A DNA stretch of 47,623 bases. Origin: a virus. Below are positions 3,091 to 45,940 of this stretch, piece by piece (position 1 is the first letter of the stretch; every line of letters starts with the position of its first letter). Location: positions 1-47,623 of the IMG/VR virus record IMGVR_UViG_3300036791_000741. One strand, 5' to 3'. Under the pieces are notes generated by a model. That model was given only the letters and a program-made list of their open reading frames with translations, made no database searches and was not told where the DNA came from. The translations under genes and the position numbers were made by a program.

Positions 3091-3744
3091 TCAATGCAGG
3101 TGATACGACACGTGCTTGACGTCGTGAGACCAGCACGCCCGGCACTCGCCGCACTTGCCGTCGACGGCGCGGCATGCTTCGCCCTGTGGCGCCGCTGCAT
3201 TATGTACGCCGCTCGTTGTCGGCCATTGCGCCGACGGCGCGCCGTCGACCATGGTGGCGCTAAGCCGGATCACGAGATTGTCAGGCACGATGCCGCCTTT
3301 GGCGACATACGATTTGACCATGGCGTGTTCGCGCGTCGGCAACCAATGCCGGATGTGTGGCGTGGCAGCTGCGACGGCGCATATCTTGGTCAAGTGTTCG
3401 ACCGATTGCAAATCGCCGCTGTCATGCCAGCGATGCCAACCCTTGGAAAACGCGCCGTTGCGCCCGGTACCGCGCACATGTGCGGCGTTCAAGAGCGTCA
3501 CCATGGCAATGGTCCAGGACGGATCGGTAATGCCGGCCAGGCGCTTGGCGTGCGACATGGCGATTGATGGATATTTGTAATTGCCTTTCAGCGCATAGCA
3601 TCCGTGGCAGGTGCTACCCGGCACCTTGGCCAGCTTGGCGCCGACTTTGCAGGCATGTGCAGATATGCCGTAGGACGTGCCGGGCATTTTAGACGGGTAT
3701 CCCAATGGCCCGGCAATAGCCGTAGCCTGCTTGATCGAAAGCAT
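3091..3744 (-). CDS. GP88-like cysteine-rich phage protein
   Basis: 217 residues from ATG 3744. Features resembling the mycobacteriophage gp88 family: a Cys cluster (HACKVG, then TCHGCYALKGNY at about residues 45-58), an RWHDSGDLQS motif near the middle, and a C-terminal CGECRACW pair. The spaced cysteines could bind zinc or an iron-sulfur cluster. Function of the family is not established. Family assignment is from memory of these motifs, hence moderate confidence. Confidence 0.65.
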   Translation of the reverse strand: MLSIKQATAIAGPLGYPSKMPGTSYGISAHACKVGAKLAKVPGSTCHGCYALKGNYKYPSIAMSHAKRLAGITDPSWTIAMVTLLNAAHVRGTGRNGAFSKGWHRWHDSGDLQSVEHLTKICAVAAATPHIRHWLPTREHAMVKSYVAKGGIVPDNLVIRLSATMVDGAPSAQWPTTSGVHNAAAPQGEACRAVDGKCGECRACWSHDVKHVSYHLH

Positions 3745-3831
3745 GTGAAATCCTCGCGTGTGCCCGGCTTGCCGGCCGGGAGAGTGCTGGCACTCTGCAA
3801 AGCCGCGCGCGAAGCGCGGCAATGCGCAATG

Positions 3832-5288: not shown

Positions 5289-5498
5289 ATGGCTGAGCGA
5301 TCGGTGATCACGTGCGGCCACTGCAAGTTCTGGCTGGAGAAGCAGGACCCGGTCGGGGTGTGCCGGCGCTATCCGCCGACCACGGTGAGCGCGTCGGGAC
5401 ATGTGGCGTGGCCGGTGACGAACCATGAGGACTGGTGCGGCGAGTTCGTCAGCGCGGAGCCGCCGCCGGAGAAGAGCCATGGCAAAACTCACCCATGA
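5289..5498 (+). CDS. Small Cys-rich zinc-ribbon-like protein
   Basis: 69 residues with CGHCKFW, VCRRYPP and DWCGEF: four cysteines spaced as a small zinc or redox module. This pattern (CGxCxFW...GxCRRYPP...WCGEF) recurs in uncharacterised phage proteins. RBS AAGGGGAGACGATC precedes the ATG. Confidence 0.75.
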   Translation: MAERSVITCGHCKFWLEKQDPVGVCRRYPPTTVSASGHVAWPVTNHEDWCGEFVSAEPPPEKSHGKTHP

Positions 5499-5724
5499 GG
5501 AAGCGCGGTATCGCGGCGGGCTGCTCGGGCGGCGCTGCGGCAACTGCGCGATGTTCCGCGACCTGGACATGGCGGTTCACGTGGGCGGGATGCGCGCTGC
5601 GGAGCTTACGGACAAGGGCCAGGGCCGCGATGAATATGACGAGCCGCCGAGCTGCACCGTGGTGGCGAGCCCGATCGCGCCGCGCGACCTATGTGATTAT
5701 TTCCAGGAGCTGAACAATGGCTGA
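5479..5724 (+). CDS. Small Cys-containing hypothetical protein
   Basis: 81 residues from the ATG at 5479, overlapping the previous gene by 20 bp. It has CGNCAMFRDLD, SCTVV and DLCDYF, a looser version of its neighbour's four-cysteine pattern, suggesting the pair arose by duplication or binds the same partner. Function unknown. Confidence 0.7.
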   Translation: MAKLTHEEARYRGGLLGRRCGNCAMFRDLDMAVHVGGMRAAELTDKGQGRDEYDEPPSCTVVASPIAPRDLCDYFQELNNG

Positions 5725-37596: not shown

Positions 37597-37642
37597 GGTA
37601 GCATATCCAAATAATTATTAACACTTTGTTAACCTGCGGTGC

Positions 37643-37722
37643 GGTGTGCAACGGCGGGCGAGGGCTTGGCCTGGCTGGGTATGGTGCGGATCAGGAGGGC
37701 GCGACATGGCATGGCACGGCAG
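37643..37722 (-). other. Array spacer 12 (distal), 16 units
   Basis: Lies between the last intact repeat and the degenerate terminal repeat. Triplets decode to LVMMALDAIQRKLPVT, open. Confidence 0.83.
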
Positions 37723-37740
37723 GGCTGTCGCCTGTGGTGT

Positions 37741-37840
37741 GGTGCGGGTTGGACCGCGCGGGCGGGCGCCGGGATGCGTGGGTTTGGCAGGGGCAAGGTT
37801 GGGCCGGGTAGGCTTGGGTGGCCCAGGATGGGCGTGGGAT
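37741..37840 (-). other. Array spacer 11, 20 units
   Basis: Triplets decode to ITHWHKYGNCLKHIGPRGNA; 16 of 20 third positions are G/C. Reads like a His/Cys-containing enzyme segment; target unknown. Confidence 0.87.
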
Positions 37841-37858
37841 GGCTGTCGCCTGTGGTGC

Positions 37859-37953
37859 GGTGCGGGGTGGCTCGGCGCGCATGGGGCTGGCGTGGCGTGG
37901 CGCGGCGGGGCGAACCCAGGCGGGGTTGGCGCTGGCTTGCGTGGGAAAGGCAT
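37859..37953 (-). other. Array spacer 10, 19 units
   Basis: Triplets decode to MFHKSQPWSPATTSHAETA; 15 of 19 third positions are G/C. Target unknown. Confidence 0.85.
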
Positions 37954-37971
37954 GGCTGTCGCCTGTGGTGC

Positions 37972-38051
37972 GGGGTGCATCGGCATGGAATGGGTCGCGT
38001 CGAGAAGGCGTGGCATGGGGTGCCTCGGGTAGCATGGGCCGGGCTCGGGGC
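37972..38051 (-). other. Array spacer 9, 16 units: MT-A70-like
   Basis: Triplets decode to AERHYETMTFDDIMDT, closely resembling the AExHYxTMxxxEI segment of MT-A70-type adenine methyltransferases common in phages; 13 of 16 third positions are G/C. Confidence 0.9.
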
Positions 38052-38069
38052 GGCTGTCGCCTGTGGGGT

Positions 38070-38149
38070 GGTGAGCAACGCGTGGGTTTGGCACGCGTGG
38101 GTGTGGCAGACGATGGCGAGGTTGGCACTGGTAGGCGCGGCAGTGGGGC
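38070..38149 (-). other. Array spacer 8, 16 units
   Basis: Triplets decode to ATRLSQSILTHVKHVS. Codon phase is less clear here (8 of 16 third positions G/C); another frame of the joined triplets is also open. Confidence 0.75.
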
Positions 38150-38167
38150 GGCTGTCGCCTGTGGTGC

Positions 38168-38292
38168 GGGGGGCAATGGGACGCGCCGGCGTGGCGAGCC
38201 CTGGGATGACGCGCGTGGGGGAGGCAGGGCTTGGGCGGGCATGCAAAGGGGTGGCGGGCGACGGTCGGGAACGCGATGGCATGGCACGGCAA
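38168..38292 (-). other. Array spacer 7, 25 units
   Basis: Triplets decode to LVMIVRVPTFMRKLS then HAIRSTGVIP, open throughout; 21 of 25 third positions are G/C. The MIVRVPTF block (38282-38243 region) matches MIVRAPTF in spacer 3. Confidence 0.88.
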
Positions 38293-38310
38293 GGCTGTCG
38301 CCTGTGGTGC

Positions 38311-38395
38311 GGGGTGCAAAGCGCAGGTTCGGGCGGGCTTGGCTCAGCCCGGTTTGGCAGGGATTGGGCCGGCGGGCGCTGGCTGGCGCGGCGGC
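38311..38395 (-). other. Array spacer 6, 17 units
   Basis: Triplets decode to ARQSPGNLKGEKRECFT, open and coding-like (13 of 17 third positions G/C). One unit ends CT. Confidence 0.85.
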
Positions 38396-38413
38396 GGCTG
38401 TCGCCTGTGGTGC

Positions 38414-38468
38414 GGCGCGGTGGACAGCGTAGCGGCACGGGGGGCGAAGGCTCGGCGTGGCCCGGAGT
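38414..38468 (-). other. Array spacer 5, 11 units
   Basis: Shortest full spacer. Triplets decode to TGTEFPVAAPA. Two units end AC and GT instead of SC. Confidence 0.8.
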
Positions 38469-38486
38469 GGCTGTCGCCTGTGGTGC

Positions 38487-38566
38487 GCGGAGGCAAGGCG
38501 CGCGGCGGGGCGAGTGGCGCTGGGAAGGCGGGGCGGGGATTGCGCAGGGACGCGATGGATTGGGAT
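38487..38566 (-). other. Array spacer 4, 16 units: methyltransferase motif
   Basis: Joined triplets decode to INIVCNPPFSHAAALS. NPPF preceded by hydrophobic residues is motif IV of adenine-N6 DNA methyltransferases. Third triplet positions are G/C in 14 of 16. Linker dinucleotides are CC (10), GC (5) and TC (1). Confidence 0.9.
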
Positions 38567-38584
38567 GGCTGTCGCCTGTGGTGT

Positions 38585-38734
38585 GGAGCGGACAGCAAAG
38601 GAGTGGCGGGCGGCGGCCGGGCACGCAATGGCATGACGTGCCTTGGGTGGCGTGGCGGGGGTAAGGCCGGGCCCGCGCTGGCTTGGCAAGGGAAGGTCTG
38701 GGCAGGTGAGGGATGGCAAGGCCGGGCGCGGCAA
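38585..38734 (-). other. Array spacer 3, 30 units
   Basis: The longest spacer. Joined triplets are open: LARLISCRFLKSGRL, PHHKT, then MIVRAPTFCA. The MIVRAPTF block (38634-38595) is homologous to one in spacer 7. Confidence 0.85.
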
Positions 38735-38752
38735 GGCTGTCGCCTGTGGTGC

Positions 38753-38798
38753 GGGGTGCTGGGCAATGGCCAGGCGGGGCTGGCGCAGGGGCGGCGTT
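38753..38798 (-). other. Array spacer 2, nine units plus one base
   Basis: 46 nt, the only inter-repeat spacer not divisible by five; the extra base adjoins the preceding repeat. Triplets decode as TACQPWIPT when the extra A is dropped. Confidence 0.7.
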
Positions 38799-38816
38799 GG
38801 CTGTCGCCTGTGGTGT

Positions 38817-38891
38817 GGTATGCGAGGCACTGGCATGGCCGGCGGCTCGGCGGGTTGGTGCGGTTAGCAGCGCGGCGCGGTGGCTCGGCTT
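38817..38891 (-). other. Array spacer 1 (gene-proximal), 15 units
   Basis: Fifteen pentamers, the first adjoining the upstream stop codon; no repeat precedes it. Joined triplets: AAG GAG ACC GCC GCT TAA, then GCA AAC GCC GCC CGG, then ATG AGT CTC ATA. This is the only spacer with a stop triplet; it could span a gene end (KETAA stop) and the next start (MSLI). One unit ends GA instead of SC. Confidence 0.7.
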
Positions 38892-38892
38892 A

Positions 38893-39495
38893 TTAAGCCG
38901 CAACCTTCCGCGGCTTCGCTTGGGGTATTTCCTTCTTGGTTTCGCACGCCCAGCACACGACCTTGAATTGACCGTAGCGCCCCTTCCGCTGTGGACGCAT
39001 GACGCCGACACCGATCTGTCTGCCAGCGCGATCGACCAGCTCGCGCACAGTTCTCTCGGTCGCCTCTTTGAGGTCGACGTCGAGCGTGAGGTCCAATTGC
39101 CAGTCATCAAAAATAGGCCGGTGGCAGATGTGCCGGCCTTTGGTCGCCTGGTTGACAATGCCGCGGCTGTCGACGCGCCAGCCCTCCTTCGACCTGATCG
39201 GCAAAAACAGCTCGGGGATCGACAGGAAGCTGGTGACGATCGTGGTGTCTCTGGTCGACATCTGTCGCTTGCCCACCTTGATGAAGACACCGGCCGCGAT
39301 GAACGCCGCGAGCACGTTGTCGGCCGGCACCACCGGCACGCCCTTGTCGTCGGTGTAGAGCTTGGCCTCGGCATCCTCCTGGGGGGTGAGTTCTTCACCG
39401 TGGCCGGTGGTCTTCGCGCCCTTGATGAGCAGGCCCTCGTGGAAGCGATCGAAGATGATCGGCGTGATGCCTTCGATGGTGACGCTGATGAGCAT
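38893..39495 (-). CDS. Putative RAMP/Cas7-like RNA-binding protein next to the array
   Basis: 200 residues, RBS AGGAAGGA seven bases before the ATG. N-terminal strand and turn MLISVTIEGITPIIFDRF; then PVVPADNVLAAFIAAG (residues 54-69), placed like the PxSSLKG helix of RAMP proteins; a strand-helix unit DDWQLDLTLDVDLKEATERT; and a C-terminal G-rich loop, GRQIGVGVMRPQRKGRYGQF (158-177), as in RAMP/Cas7 domains. Cys residues at 124, 181 and 184. Cas7 proteins coat guide RNA in short segments with a regular step, which fits a 5-nt periodic array starting one base after this stop. It lies in the recombination operon below RecT and YqaJ homologues, so a recombination accessory role is the alternative. 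Fold assignment is by eye. Confidence 0.6.
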   Translation of the reverse strand: MLISVTIEGITPIIFDRFHEGLLIKGAKTTGHGEELTPQEDAEAKLYTDDKGVPVVPADNVLAAFIAAGVFIKVGKRQMSTRDTTIVTSFLSIPELFLPIRSKEGWRVDSRGIVNQATKGRHICHRPIFDDWQLDLTLDVDLKEATERTVRELVDRAGRQIGVGVMRPQRKGRYGQFKVVCWACETKKEIPQAKPRKVAA

Positions 39496-39528
39496 GGTGT
39501 GGTCCTTCCTGCGTTTGCGGGTTTGGTT

Positions 39529-40338
39529 TTATTGCCGGGCATCAGCCTCCCGCGTCAGCTCTGCCAGCTCCTTCATGATCGGCTTCAGGTCGTCGCGCTG
39601 ATGCGGCAGCAGGCGCTGCCACAGCACGGCGAACGCTGCGCGCCCGTGGCCCGCCGCCATGCGCGCCTCCTCCTCCAGCGACAGCTCGCGCTCGTCAGGG
39701 ACCGCCTCGTCCGTCGTTGAGTGGCTCTCAGTTTCGGACGAGGCGGTCGTCGCCGCCGATGTCGAGGTTGGTACTTGGGCCGGCGGCGAACCGTCGTCGA
39801 TGATCTCTCCGGTCTCGTGGTCGTGTGGCTGCATCACATTGGGCGCCGGCGGTGGTGGGCGACGGGCGCCCGGCACGCTGTCGACCTCGCTCTCGTCGAG
39901 GAAACCAAGCCCGCTGATCGACAACGTCACCCGGCGCTTGGCCTTGGTGATCGCCTTCATCACCGCGTTCGAACGCACCTCGCCCTTGAGCGCCGCCGAG
40001 AACGGCACGACGCCGAGGTCCTCGTCGCTGCGGCCATCGCGATCGATCGCCTTGACGTGGATCGTCAGCATGTCGTCGCGCACCTCTTGGCTGATGATGC
40101 TGATCGAGATGCCGTGTATCTTGCGCAGCTGATCGGCGGCATCGCGCTTGGCGTAGAGCGACAGTTTGCCCTGCAGCGTGATGTAGGCGAACGGCTGGGT
40201 GTGCGGGTTGAGCCCGAGCGACTGGCACAGCTGCACGTAATAGCGCGTGCGCTCCTCGGGGTTGAGCTTGGCGAGATCGCCGCGGGTGATCACGTCCTCG
40301 ATGACGTTGCCGCTGGCGGCGCGCGTTGGGACGGTCAT
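39529..40338 (-). CDS. RecT/Bet-like single-strand annealing protein
   Basis: 269 residues from ATG 40338 (RBS GGGAGGATTTG, TGATG overlap). Core pattern of phage annealases: YVQLCQSLGLNPHTQPFAYI, KLSLYAKRDAADQLRKIHGI, then SNAVMKAITKAKRRVTLSIS and GLGFLDESEVDSV. It would coat single-stranded ends made by the YqaJ-type exonuclease encoded upstream and anneal them to homologous DNA. The C-terminal 90 residues are Pro/Ser/acidic low complexity, possibly for SSB or partner binding. Confidence 0.85.
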   Translation of the reverse strand: MTVPTRAASGNVIEDVITRGDLAKLNPEERTRYYVQLCQSLGLNPHTQPFAYITLQGKLSLYAKRDAADQLRKIHGISISIISQEVRDDMLTIHVKAIDRDGRSDEDLGVVPFSAALKGEVRSNAVMKAITKAKRRVTLSISGLGFLDESEVDSVPGARRPPPPAPNVMQPHDHETGEIIDDGSPPAQVPTSTSAATTASSETESHSTTDEAVPDERELSLEEEARMAAGHGRAAFAVLWQRLLPHQRDDLKPIMKELAELTREADARQ

Positions 40339-43399: not shown

Positions 43400-43838
43400 C
43401 TGGAACGAAACCGAGATCGGCGACCTGCGGCGCCTGTGCGCCGAGGGCTGCAGCGCGCGCGTAATCGCCGACTGGCTCGGCATCACCCGCAACGCCGTCA
43501 TCGGCAAGGTCGCGCGCATGGGCCTGCATCTTCCCGGGCCCGAGCCCAAGCCGAAGTCGAAGGGCAAGCGCAGCCACCATCGCAAGCCACCGCCGCCTCA
43601 GGCTATCCCGGCGCCGCGCGCCAGGTTTCCCGAACCCAGCCGCACCAAGCATGGCCAGCCCGAGCTGCACGCCTCGCCCTGCCTGATCACCGACCTGACC
43701 GAGAACGCCTGCCACTGGCCGATGTGGAACCACCAGGAGCGCGACATCCGGGCGAAGCTCTACTGCGGCGGCATGGCGGTCGAGGGCTCGAAGTACTGCC
43801 CGCACCACGCCTGGCTCAACGCGCGAGGAGCGTCATGA
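43392..43838 (+). CDS. gcrA: GcrA-family cell-cycle regulator homologue
   Basis: 148 residues. Residues 4-48 match the GcrA DNA-binding domain (WNETEIGDLRRLCAEGCSAR, then ITRNAVIGKVARMGL). A Pro/Lys linker follows, and the C-terminus retains the Cys/His segment (CHWPMW at 107-112, LYCGG, KYCPHHAWL at 135-143) used to bind sigma-70 domain 2. In alphaproteobacteria GcrA activates promoters carrying CcrM-methylated GANTC sites. Phage copies could redirect host transcription. ATGA coupled to the next gene. Confidence 0.87.
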   Translation: MHDWNETEIGDLRRLCAEGCSARVIADWLGITRNAVIGKVARMGLHLPGPEPKPKSKGKRSHHRKPPPPQAIPAPRARFPEPSRTKHGQPELHASPCLITDLTENACHWPMWNHQERDIRAKLYCGGMAVEGSKYCPHHAWLNARGAS

Positions 43839-44410
43839 CGCGAAAATCTGACGTCGTTGTTCAGCTGCCCAATGGGCGCTCGCGCGAACATTGGGCTGGC
43901 CTCATCACCAACGCATGGCGGGAGCAATTGCCCAGCATTTTCGAAACCGGAAATCTTCTGGAGGCCGCGAAGTGTGAACTGCCACACGGCGAATTTCTAA
44001 AGATGGTGAAAGAGCGCCTGCCGTTCAGCCGACAGGTGGCTCACAGATTGATGGTCATTGCGGACAGTGACAACCTGCGAAATGTGGACGTGCATCCACA
44101 TTTACCCGTCGCCTGGACCATTTTGTACCAGCTAACAAAACTCACGGAGGAGCAATTTGACAAGGGTATCAAGAGCGGTGCCATTCATCCCGCAATGGCG
44201 ACTAAGGAGGCGCGTGCGTTACGTGGGCTCGAACCACGTAAAAAAAAAGACAGCGCGGGGACCACAATAGCTCAATTGCGCGAAACCCTAACCCCGCTGC
44301 TGCTCGCACTGCCCAAAGATGAACGACGATTGGAAATTACCAGGATTATGGGTGCGGCTGATATGAGCACCCACGACTGGGTAAACACAATAACACTTGG
44401 GAGGAGATAA
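43835..44410 (+). CDS. DUF3102-like helical protein of the low-GC module
   Basis: 191 residues from ATG 43835. Central region LLEAAKCELPHGEFLKMVKE then RLPFSRQVAHRLMVIADSDN resembles the DUF3102 pattern: an L-x-x-AK-x-x-LPHGxFxxxxxxxLPFSxRTAxxLMxIA core. The C-terminus is Lys-rich then helical. It precedes the GHKL ATPase gene by 4 bp, so the two are likely one module. G+C is visibly below that of neighbouring genes. Confidence 0.75.
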   Translation: MTRKSDVVVQLPNGRSREHWAGLITNAWREQLPSIFETGNLLEAAKCELPHGEFLKMVKERLPFSRQVAHRLMVIADSDNLRNVDVHPHLPVAWTILYQLTKLTEEQFDKGIKSGAIHPAMATKEARALRGLEPRKKKDSAGTTIAQLRETLTPLLLALPKDERRLEITRIMGAADMSTHDWVNTITLGRR

Positions 44411-44413
44411 CTC

Positions 44414-45940
44414 ATGGCCACCAGAAGCAAACTCATGACTACCAGCAGCATGTATAGTATTACGCCGAAACCGGCGATGTTGCGTGGTATACAAAATCAA
44501 CGATGGACGCCGACCGGTGCACTGGCCGAACTGATTGACAACTCGTTTGGTCCCGGCCGAGGCAATGCGACAATCGTGTCAATCGTCTATGACACGGTCG
44601 ATCGCACCTTAACGGTCACCGATAACGGTCAGGGTATGGAATATATCGGCCGGCTTTTCCAGCTCGGAAACACTATTGGTCGCACGGTTGGCGACATCGG
44701 TTATTTTGGGTCCGGCGGCACACAAGCTATCATTTGGCTGCCAGAGTTTGTGTCGGTTGCGACCGAACGCGACGGTATGGTGATGCAAGATAGTATTCGA
44801 TGGGCCGATGTGTTTGAGCTTGACGATTTTGCCGATGTGGCAGTTTCGAACGTATGGCGTAAGGGTTCGTTGGGATTGCCGCAAGGGCACGGCACTGTCA
44901 TCAAGATGAAGTTGCTAAAAAGCCGCAAGCTGCACATTGGAAACTTGGTTCGCGACCTGTCACGGCTGTTTGCTCCTGGCTTGCGCCGAGGAAAGACCAT
45001 TACCTGGGTTCAAGCGAGGAGCGGGGACATAGTTGATGAGCGCAAGCTGGATGATCCATTCGAGGTGAAGGCTGCTCCGGAAAATACGGTGCGCTTCAAC
45101 ATTGTTGTAGAGCATGGCGACGAACATCTGCCGGTTCGCGGGGTCGTGTCGTTCGATGACAGCGTGTCGCACGCCGACTCTGTCATTCACGTCGGTTTTG
45201 TATATCGCGAAATCATGCGCACACGGGATTGTTTCCGGTCGGATGATGAAGCCTTCGATGGCATAGGTGTGTCCGGTTGGCTCGATCTTGGTGATGGATG
45301 GCAGCCTTATCTATCGACCACTAAAGACGGTTTCGATAATCAGCCTCTTTATGATGCTCTTATGGAGCATGTGTTTGGTCATATTCGGGACCTTCTCATC
45401 AAAGCCCAACGCAAAGCTATCAATTTCGAACTCGACAATATTGCGGTTGGACTACAAATGACGTTCGAAAACATCTCGAAAATGAGAGTGAGCGTTCGAC
45501 GTGAGCCGGGGGCTGGCGAGCCCGGCGGTATACCTGGCGAGGGCGAGGGCGGCGGCGGCGGTGAGCATAAACCGCAACCCCACGATGACGGCAAGAACAA
45601 GAAGGATGCCGCTGCTCACATTCGCCTGGTCCCAGAGAATGACGACAAAATGAAGGGCGCGCTCGCGCGGGCTGGTTGGGACGCGGTTGGTATTTTTGTA
45701 GACCTCAATGAAGAACACCCTTATGTGCGCGAGGCAATGAGGCGTCCAGTTAACAGGCCAGCTCTTCATCACATGATTATTGCAGAAATCGCTGCATTAT
45801 TAGCCGGCGATTGCGATCTCCTTAATAAGGCGTTTAGAAAATCAGTTGTTAACGAGTTGGACGGTTGTGATGGGCAGGAAAAAATCCGCAAGCTCATCCG
45901 ATATCTGATCGACAGTGTTCCGGAAAAAAGCGCGGCATAA
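44414..45940 (+). CDS. GHKL (Hsp90/MORC-like) ATPase
   Basis: 508 residues with the Bergerat ATP fold: N-box ELIDNS (residues 39-44), G1 box DNGQG (70-74), G2 box GYFGSGG (96-102), and a later GTVIKM strand. A Gly-rich linker (near 370-385) leads to a C-terminal helical region (AALLAGDCDLLNKAFRKSVV). Such ATPases clamp on nucleic acids or proteins; MORC-like forms occur in bacterial defence loci. No nuclease domain is visible. Lower G+C, and paired with the DUF3102-like gene: may be a lysogen-encoded defence or a replication factor. Confidence 0.82.
   Translation: MATRSKLMTTSSMYSITPKPAMLRGIQNQRWTPTGALAELIDNSFGPGRGNATIVSIVYDTVDRTLTVTDNGQGMEYIGRLFQLGNTIGRTVGDIGYFGSGGTQAIIWLPEFVSVATERDGMVMQDSIRWADVFELDDFADVAVSNVWRKGSLGLPQGHGTVIKMKLLKSRKLHIGNLVRDLSRLFAPGLRRGKTITWVQARSGDIVDERKLDDPFEVKAAPENTVRFNIVVEHGDEHLPVRGVVSFDDSVSHADSVIHVGFVYREIMRTRDCFRSDDEAFDGIGVSGWLDLGDGWQPYLSTTKDGFDNQPLYDALMEHVFGHIRDLLIKAQRKAINFELDNIAVGLQMTFENISKMRVSVRREPGAGEPGGIPGEGEGGGGGEHKPQPHDDGKNKKDAAAHIRLVPENDDKMKGALARAGWDAVGIFVDLNEEHPYVREAMRRPVNRPALHHMIIAEIAALLAGDCDLLNKAFRKSVVNELDGCDGQEKIRKLIRYLIDSVPEKSAA

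Follow-up and report, generated by a model that had tools for sequence, protein, structure and literature searches.

The DNA analysed here, called the window, is the whole 47,623-nucleotide stretch of IMG/VR record IMGVR_UViG_3300036791_000741, a virus record that includes genes for terminase, head and tail. On its minus strand, an open reading frame at 38893-39495 encodes 200 amino acids from ATG to TAA and is preceded by a ribosome-binding site rated as good (GGAAGG, read directly from the sequence). The TAA stop codon occupies 38895-38893 and GGCTT, the last unit of an array of pentanucleotides, ends at 38891, which leaves a gap of one base; both the reality of the frame and the one-base distance had been given in a first-pass annotation made from the sequence alone, and both were confirmed. 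The features of the locus are as follows.

37618..37632, AT-rich inverted repeat TTAACACTTTGTTAA, between the array and the next gene
37633..38891, guide array of 12 guides, pentanucleotide units GSNNN on the plus strand (NNNSC on the gene strand)
37643..37725, guide 1, 16 units
37736..37843, guide 2, 21 units
37854..37956, guide 3, 20 units
37967..38054, guide 4, 17 units
38065..38152, guide 5, 17 units
38163..38295, guide 6, 26 units, decodes to the DNA-methylase-like peptide GMTPVDLIAWDSLRIKVGTRTIIT
38306..38398, guide 7, 18 units
38409..38471, guide 8, 12 units
38482..38569, guide 9, 17 units
38580..38737, guide 10, 31 units, decodes to VAQKVGARTIIVLWWGNRPLFKNLHEINRA
38748..38801, guide 11, 10 units plus a single additional base
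38812..38891, guide 12, terminal, no internal separator, one phase slip
37726..38811, separators, 11 identical 10-nt copies of TGTCGCCTGT (plus strand), the first at 37726 and the last at 38802-38811
38886..38900, small hairpin CGGCTTATTAAGCCG at the junction of the array and the vipr stop codon
38893..39495, minus strand, vipr gene for a 200-residue single-RRM RAMP, a Vipr homologue (P0001) by match to phrog_4652, profile match to PDB 36pp and Foldseek matches to RAMP proteins

The array, which adjoins the vipr gene and is approximately 1.25 kb long, holds 10 to 31 units per guide between separators. Part of the separator (CCTGYGGTGCGG) also stands before guide 1, and 11 copies of GGCTGTCGCCTGTGG occur in the array, spaced by 5n+3 except in the last case. 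Such regularity far exceeds what chance would give. Among its 205 units, read on the plus strand, position 1 was G in 96% and position 2 was G or C in 96%, while positions 3 to 5 were near maximal entropy. When runs were scored in windows of ten units with dinucleotide shuffles as the control, 126 windows contained at least 9 of 10 units in phase as opposed to a shuffle mean of 1.66 (maximum 10), and no in-phase run of this quality (at least 9 of 10) was found elsewhere in the analysed stretch. An Rfam search of the array revealed no ribozyme and no known RNA, a similar search of the relatives' loci revealed nothing beyond one tRNA, and the separator, when searched in IMG/VR, gave only six isolated chance matches without arrays. 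The AT-rich inverted repeat at 37618..37632 is a possible operator or promoter region, judging by its sequence; a promoter scan of this region found no sigma-70 consensus. Open reading frames of 341-637 amino acids were noted across the array on both strands (37629-39542); these are unlikely to be genes and are open through the composition of the array.

The predicted AlphaFold model of the 200-residue protein (mean pLDDT 82, pTM 0.75) contained each of the elements that the first-pass annotation had read from the sequence, namely an N-terminal strand (the first strand, residues 2-9), a PxxN helix (residues 58-71, which hold the motif PADN) and a C-terminal G-rich loop (residues 162-176, between helix 147-161 and strand 177-185). 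Foldseek comparison of this model with the PDB gave 64 matches at E<=1e-3, and the best 50 of these, the ones listed, were all RAMP subunits of CRISPR complexes, with types III-A and VII foremost; matches to chains of Csm3/Cas7-type RAMP subunits had E values of about 1e-5 and a probability of 1.00. The RAMP/Cas7-like fold claimed earlier was supported by this structural search (50 of 50 listed PDB matches) as well as by homology with Vipr. P0001 matched phrog_4652 (E=1e-15), a family without assigned function in PHROG that was also matched (E=1e-96) by the candidate Vipr of phage SUSP1, the gene for which was located by means of its gene pair and flanking arrays. The profile of the window family matched PDB 36pp, an entry named "SUSP1 Vipr protein", at E=1.7e-19, the single window protein matched it at E=1.2e-4, and BLASTP of the window protein against Vipr indicated 35% identity over 60 amino acids. 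By homology and predicted fold, the window protein is a relative of SUSP1 Vipr, a single-RRM RAMP with a G-loop.

The description of VIPR (Viral Interference Programmable Repeat) dates from 2026 and presents it as possibly ancestral to CRISPR RAMPs (PMC13142463). According to this preprint, phage RAMP proteins (Vipr) act with guide RNAs in which GGY and NN alternate, and dsDNA is read with one base skipped per repeat. The published systems are those of phage SUSP1 and of a Pseudomonas fulva prophage (type II), for both of which RNP formation, dsDNA binding and repression were reported (PMC13142463, PDB 36pp). Two earlier proposals, that pairing of a Cas7-like protein with a 5-nt periodic guide would be natural and that silencing might proceed by binding without a nuclease, coincide with the mechanism given there (PMC13142463). 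Like VIPR, the window has a phage-encoded single-RRM RAMP of about 20 kDa with an adjoining guide array in which tandem pentanucleotide units alternate fixed and hypervariable positions. The window differs from the published systems in its unit (GSNNN or NNNSC with a free third position, as opposed to GGY/NN), in the number of units between separators (10-31, as opposed to 9-16 repeats per published guide; PMC13142463), in the joining of 12 guides by a 10-nt separator into one tandem array, and in that no vap accessory gene was recognised beside its vipr gene. The RAMP fold, the G-rich loop and a presumed filament on guide RNA are shared with Cas7/Csm3 of class 1 CRISPR systems (types III-A and VII), although sequence identity to these proteins is only about 10% and the window guides have a 5-nt period. 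Class 1 CRISPR-Cas loci carry a cas operon as well as near-identical repeats, 20-40 nt long, with unique spacers, whereas in the window only a 10-nt separator is repeated; CRISPR repeats, Cas5, Cas6, Cas10 and adaptation genes were not found, and no cas family was matched among the window proteins scanned.

The gene is clustered with genes for an exonuclease (YqaJ) and for a protein that probably acts in annealing but has no family match, an arrangement that could suit an ordinary phage recombination or ssDNA-binding factor beside an array with a role merely as DNA (a recombination site or low-complexity sequence, for instance). This explanation appears very remote, since the recombination genes are not conserved beside homologues while arrays are, since the fold and the PDB relative are those of guide-RNA-binding proteins, and since the variable positions in relatives decode to alleles of phage genes. 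The reading of the array as a recombination site was rejected on account of the arrays beside homologues and of the RAMP fold. A further suggestion of the first-pass annotation, that the protein might recruit the exonuclease of its operon, was dropped because the YqaJ neighbour is not conserved beside vipr homologues.

Arrays flank the gene in about 32 of 36 homologous viral loci from IMG/VR, and arrays of GGNNN units lie beside it in all four characterised phages (Mycobacterium phage Quico and Gordonia phages Trine, Pipp and UmaThurman). Homologues routinely without an array, which would have refuted the RAMP-array association, were thus not what was found. A search for GGCNN runs matched 22 of 25 records, with a low count for the reversed-pattern control. 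The closest relatives, loci L015 and L016 (62-63% identity), formed one clade with the window in the tree (support 0.994), and this clade sits next to loci with GGC arrays.

Several observations were made on individual loci. In L016, a second, shortened Vipr copy of 59 amino acids (5425-5601, plus strand) with a guide before it was 56% identical to the C-terminal half of the window Vipr, including the G-loop, and is possibly a mini-Vipr or a remnant, as far as its sequence allows. Guides of Gordonia phage Trine (L003:4433-4641) are separated by a tRNA-3'-half-like sequence, GGTTCGACTCCCCGGGGGAGCAC, which suggests processing by tRNA enzymes; annotated gene 40 of this phage starts across the array. 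Pipp gene 43 (L010:3581-3850) coincides with a guide array at 3572-3817 and UmaThurman gene 40 (L011:3478-3801) with one at 3450-3800, and these annotated hypothetical proteins are probably not genes. The terminase of Microcystis phage Mwe-JY08 (L013, PP395640) was 44% identical to that of the window, and an end protein of this phage resembles those of rhizobial phages; on such sequence resemblance, its stated cyanobacterial host may deserve a check. Within the window itself, a DUF3102 protein is followed by a 508-residue protein with a GHKL ATPase domain (HATPase_c_3) at 43436-45940 on the plus strand, a pair that is unusual beside phage genes.

Comparison of cleanly phased arrays indicated that the unit of the window clade departs from that of other relatives. 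Among GGY relatives, position 2 was G in 85-100% of units, position 3 was C or T, and the entropy of position 3 was mostly 0.4-1.2 bits; automatic phasing was blurred in actinophage loci whose guides overlap. For the window, L015 and L016, the base at position 2 was G or C (0.64-0.79 as opposed to 0.19-0.29) and position 3, the "skip" position, was free (1.72-1.85 bits), so that the strict GGY/NN consensus was not met. This variant unit, GSNNN/NNNSC, was limited to the window clade. The unit is new, while the VIPR kind itself was already published in 2026; the claim made here is of a variant and not of a typed VIPR member, and the preprint allows, beside the GGY/NN consensus, "a related consensus" (PMC13142463).

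If units are taken as GGY/NN, the GG strand in the window clade is opposite to the gene, unlike at other loci, and an array antisense to vipr was initially assumed from the GG motif on the plus strand. The evidence on strand splits, however, and two readings remain. In one, the RNA corresponds to the GG strand, is antisense to vipr and has an invariant 5' leader, and the AT-rich, -10-like sequence at the 5' end of the GG strand counts in its favour. In the other, the RNA corresponds to the gene strand, its units are NNNSC and its invariant element is a 3' tail, as in the published systems; in favour of this reading, guide ends abut the ribosome-binding sites of genes in the same direction, and a T-rich stretch follows one hairpin. 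The invariant element at one end of each guide is accordingly 5' or 3' depending on the strand. Guides in the phage of L016 were split between genes in the two orientations (11 versus 14), and a promoter and terminator scan with RNA folding of the separator gave no pointer to the strand. Of the earlier statement that the gene lies directly upstream of the array, adjacency was upheld; "upstream" presupposes transcription of the array from the gene strand, and the transcribed strand is unresolved.

Guides were decoded by concatenation of unit positions 3-5 and translation. Decoded peptides of the window were mostly open in frames with position 3 as the wobble base, which is weak evidence alone, and a stop-codon permutation test of the window guides had no power (p=0.70). 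The peptide of guide 6, GMTPVDLIAWDSLRIKVGTRTIIT, aligned with phage DNA methylases (ICPPVDLIAWDNLQMGMGYRTRRR), one of which is at a locus (L051) assigned to PF01555; two methylase loci were fetched with an 8-residue seed from this peptide, and only the extension of the match is independent evidence. A KVG(A/T)RTII stretch was common to decoded guides 6 and 10. Searches of the decoded peptides against phages, viral contigs, Pfam and PHROGs gave relatives for guide 6 alone, a DNA pattern search for guide 6 gave no match, and searches of genome contigs with the Vipr clade alignment and the decoded peptides gave no confirmed relatives. For the guides of the window itself, searches gave no exact DNA target, and these guides matched nothing in the window sequence.

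More informative pairs were noted in relatives, where a register of three target bases per unit, as in VIPR, was confirmed. Among 26 guides in about 75 kb examined of the phage of L016, 7 matched a gene at a distance of 105-298 nt when one nucleotide was skipped per unit (p<1e-6); no guide did so at skip 0, 1 did so at skip 2, and shuffled unit order gave 0-1. One decoded peptide, EALLKGKGGK, was identical to the neighbouring protein (12 of 12 over the whole guide) and another, IGVGVMRPERKRQYGQYLV, resembled IGIGVMRPERKRQYGQYVV of the phage's own Vipr. For the seven guides, NN matching was best (up to 20/20) within the neighbouring gene of the phage itself, and under the published code, with the third base unread, some own genes would be bound. 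This could mean that the main task of guides is to repress nearby genes of the same phage and so set the timing of expression. Such autoregulation is considered improbable, though less so than the recombination explanation, because the third base specifies the correct amino acid but departs from that of the phage's own gene in 49 of 65 cases (identical in only 16), as expected for the allele of another phage, because sister-clade guides described below fit the allele of the other phage better, and because the window guides match nothing in the window. Since the amino acid was kept yet the own wobble base mostly differed, the L016 guides carry a synonymous allele of the neighbouring gene, presumably that of a rival.

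Retention of the amino acid, which was noted in 33 of 37 split-box codons of the L016 phage (permutation expectation 21.4 +/- 2.75, p=1.5e-4), is also the basis for stating, from sequence comparison, that the third variable base in the window clade is target-derived. The same system might nevertheless operate with its two-base code unchanged, the third position being merely relaxed in this clade and unread. The third-position base in the GGY sister clade is constant and independent of the target, and the NN positions alone were validated experimentally in the published work on VIPR (PMC13142463). This remains possible but is rather unlikely, inasmuch as an unread, drifting base would not for long keep the amino acid as observed in L016.

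Cross-phage targets of the GGY sister clade, in a scan limited to retrieved loci, were found in 5 windows, as opposed to none at skip 0, at skip 2 or with shuffled units. Two guides, beside the same VRR-NUC-like gene (family assigned by eye), were reciprocal.

L024:1329-1398, minus strand, guide beside the VRR-NUC-like gene
L042:1303-1362, minus strand, guide beside the VRR-NUC-like gene

The L024 guide fitted the L042 allele at 27 of 28 positions and its own allele at 21 of 28, and the L042 guide fitted the L024 allele at 17 of 18 as opposed to 12 of 18 for the best match in L042. The excess of neighbour matches in the sister clade overall was weaker (17 as opposed to 2-6 shuffled at p<1e-5). 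From these pairs it is inferred that a gene's neighbouring guides are retained in order to silence the alleles of that gene in rivals. The main text of the preprint reports targeting of satellites, prophages and other VIPRs, and not this allele pattern (PMC13142463).

We consider it highly probable that the locus belongs to a phage-borne VIPR variant clade in which Vipr, arranged along guide RNA from the array, silences matching genes, likely alleles of rivals. The 200-residue RAMP would assemble along guide RNA from the adjacent array, with each 5-nt unit covering three target bases, the variable bases pairing and the two fixed bases held by the protein. Binding of the RNP to dsDNA of matching genes would then silence them without need of a nuclease. 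Expression, processing and silencing at the window locus are inferred, in the absence of expression data. The likely role, by extension from relatives, would be repression of competing phages' alleles while the phage's own diverged allele is spared, and silencing of rival phages' alleles is the most likely function of the window system, although its guides have no exact target. Exclusion of markers by homing endonucleases in T-even phages follows a comparable logic, in that the factor is encoded beside the locus whose rival allele is attacked. Relatives' guides likewise lie beside the targeted gene and the own allele would be spared by divergence, but VIPR is RNA-guided and presumably silences, as opposed to protein-coded cleavage, and the likeness is an analogy of logic and not of membership.

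Whether the code itself has changed is judged about evenly balanced. The normally skipped base would then be read as part of a contiguous triplet per unit, with RNA-guided allelic exclusion of rivals' synonymous alleles and sparing of the own allele by its wobble bases; physical reading of this base is an inference. Reading it would sharpen the distinction of self from non-self in the window clade. The locus indicates that the VIPR repeat code is not fixed, with the third position freed and apparently target-derived, and, if the third base is read, a single protein family would have passed from a gapped code to one of contiguous triplets. The natural guide-target pairs of relatives, including the reciprocal pair, make discrimination of self from non-self by VIPR directly testable.
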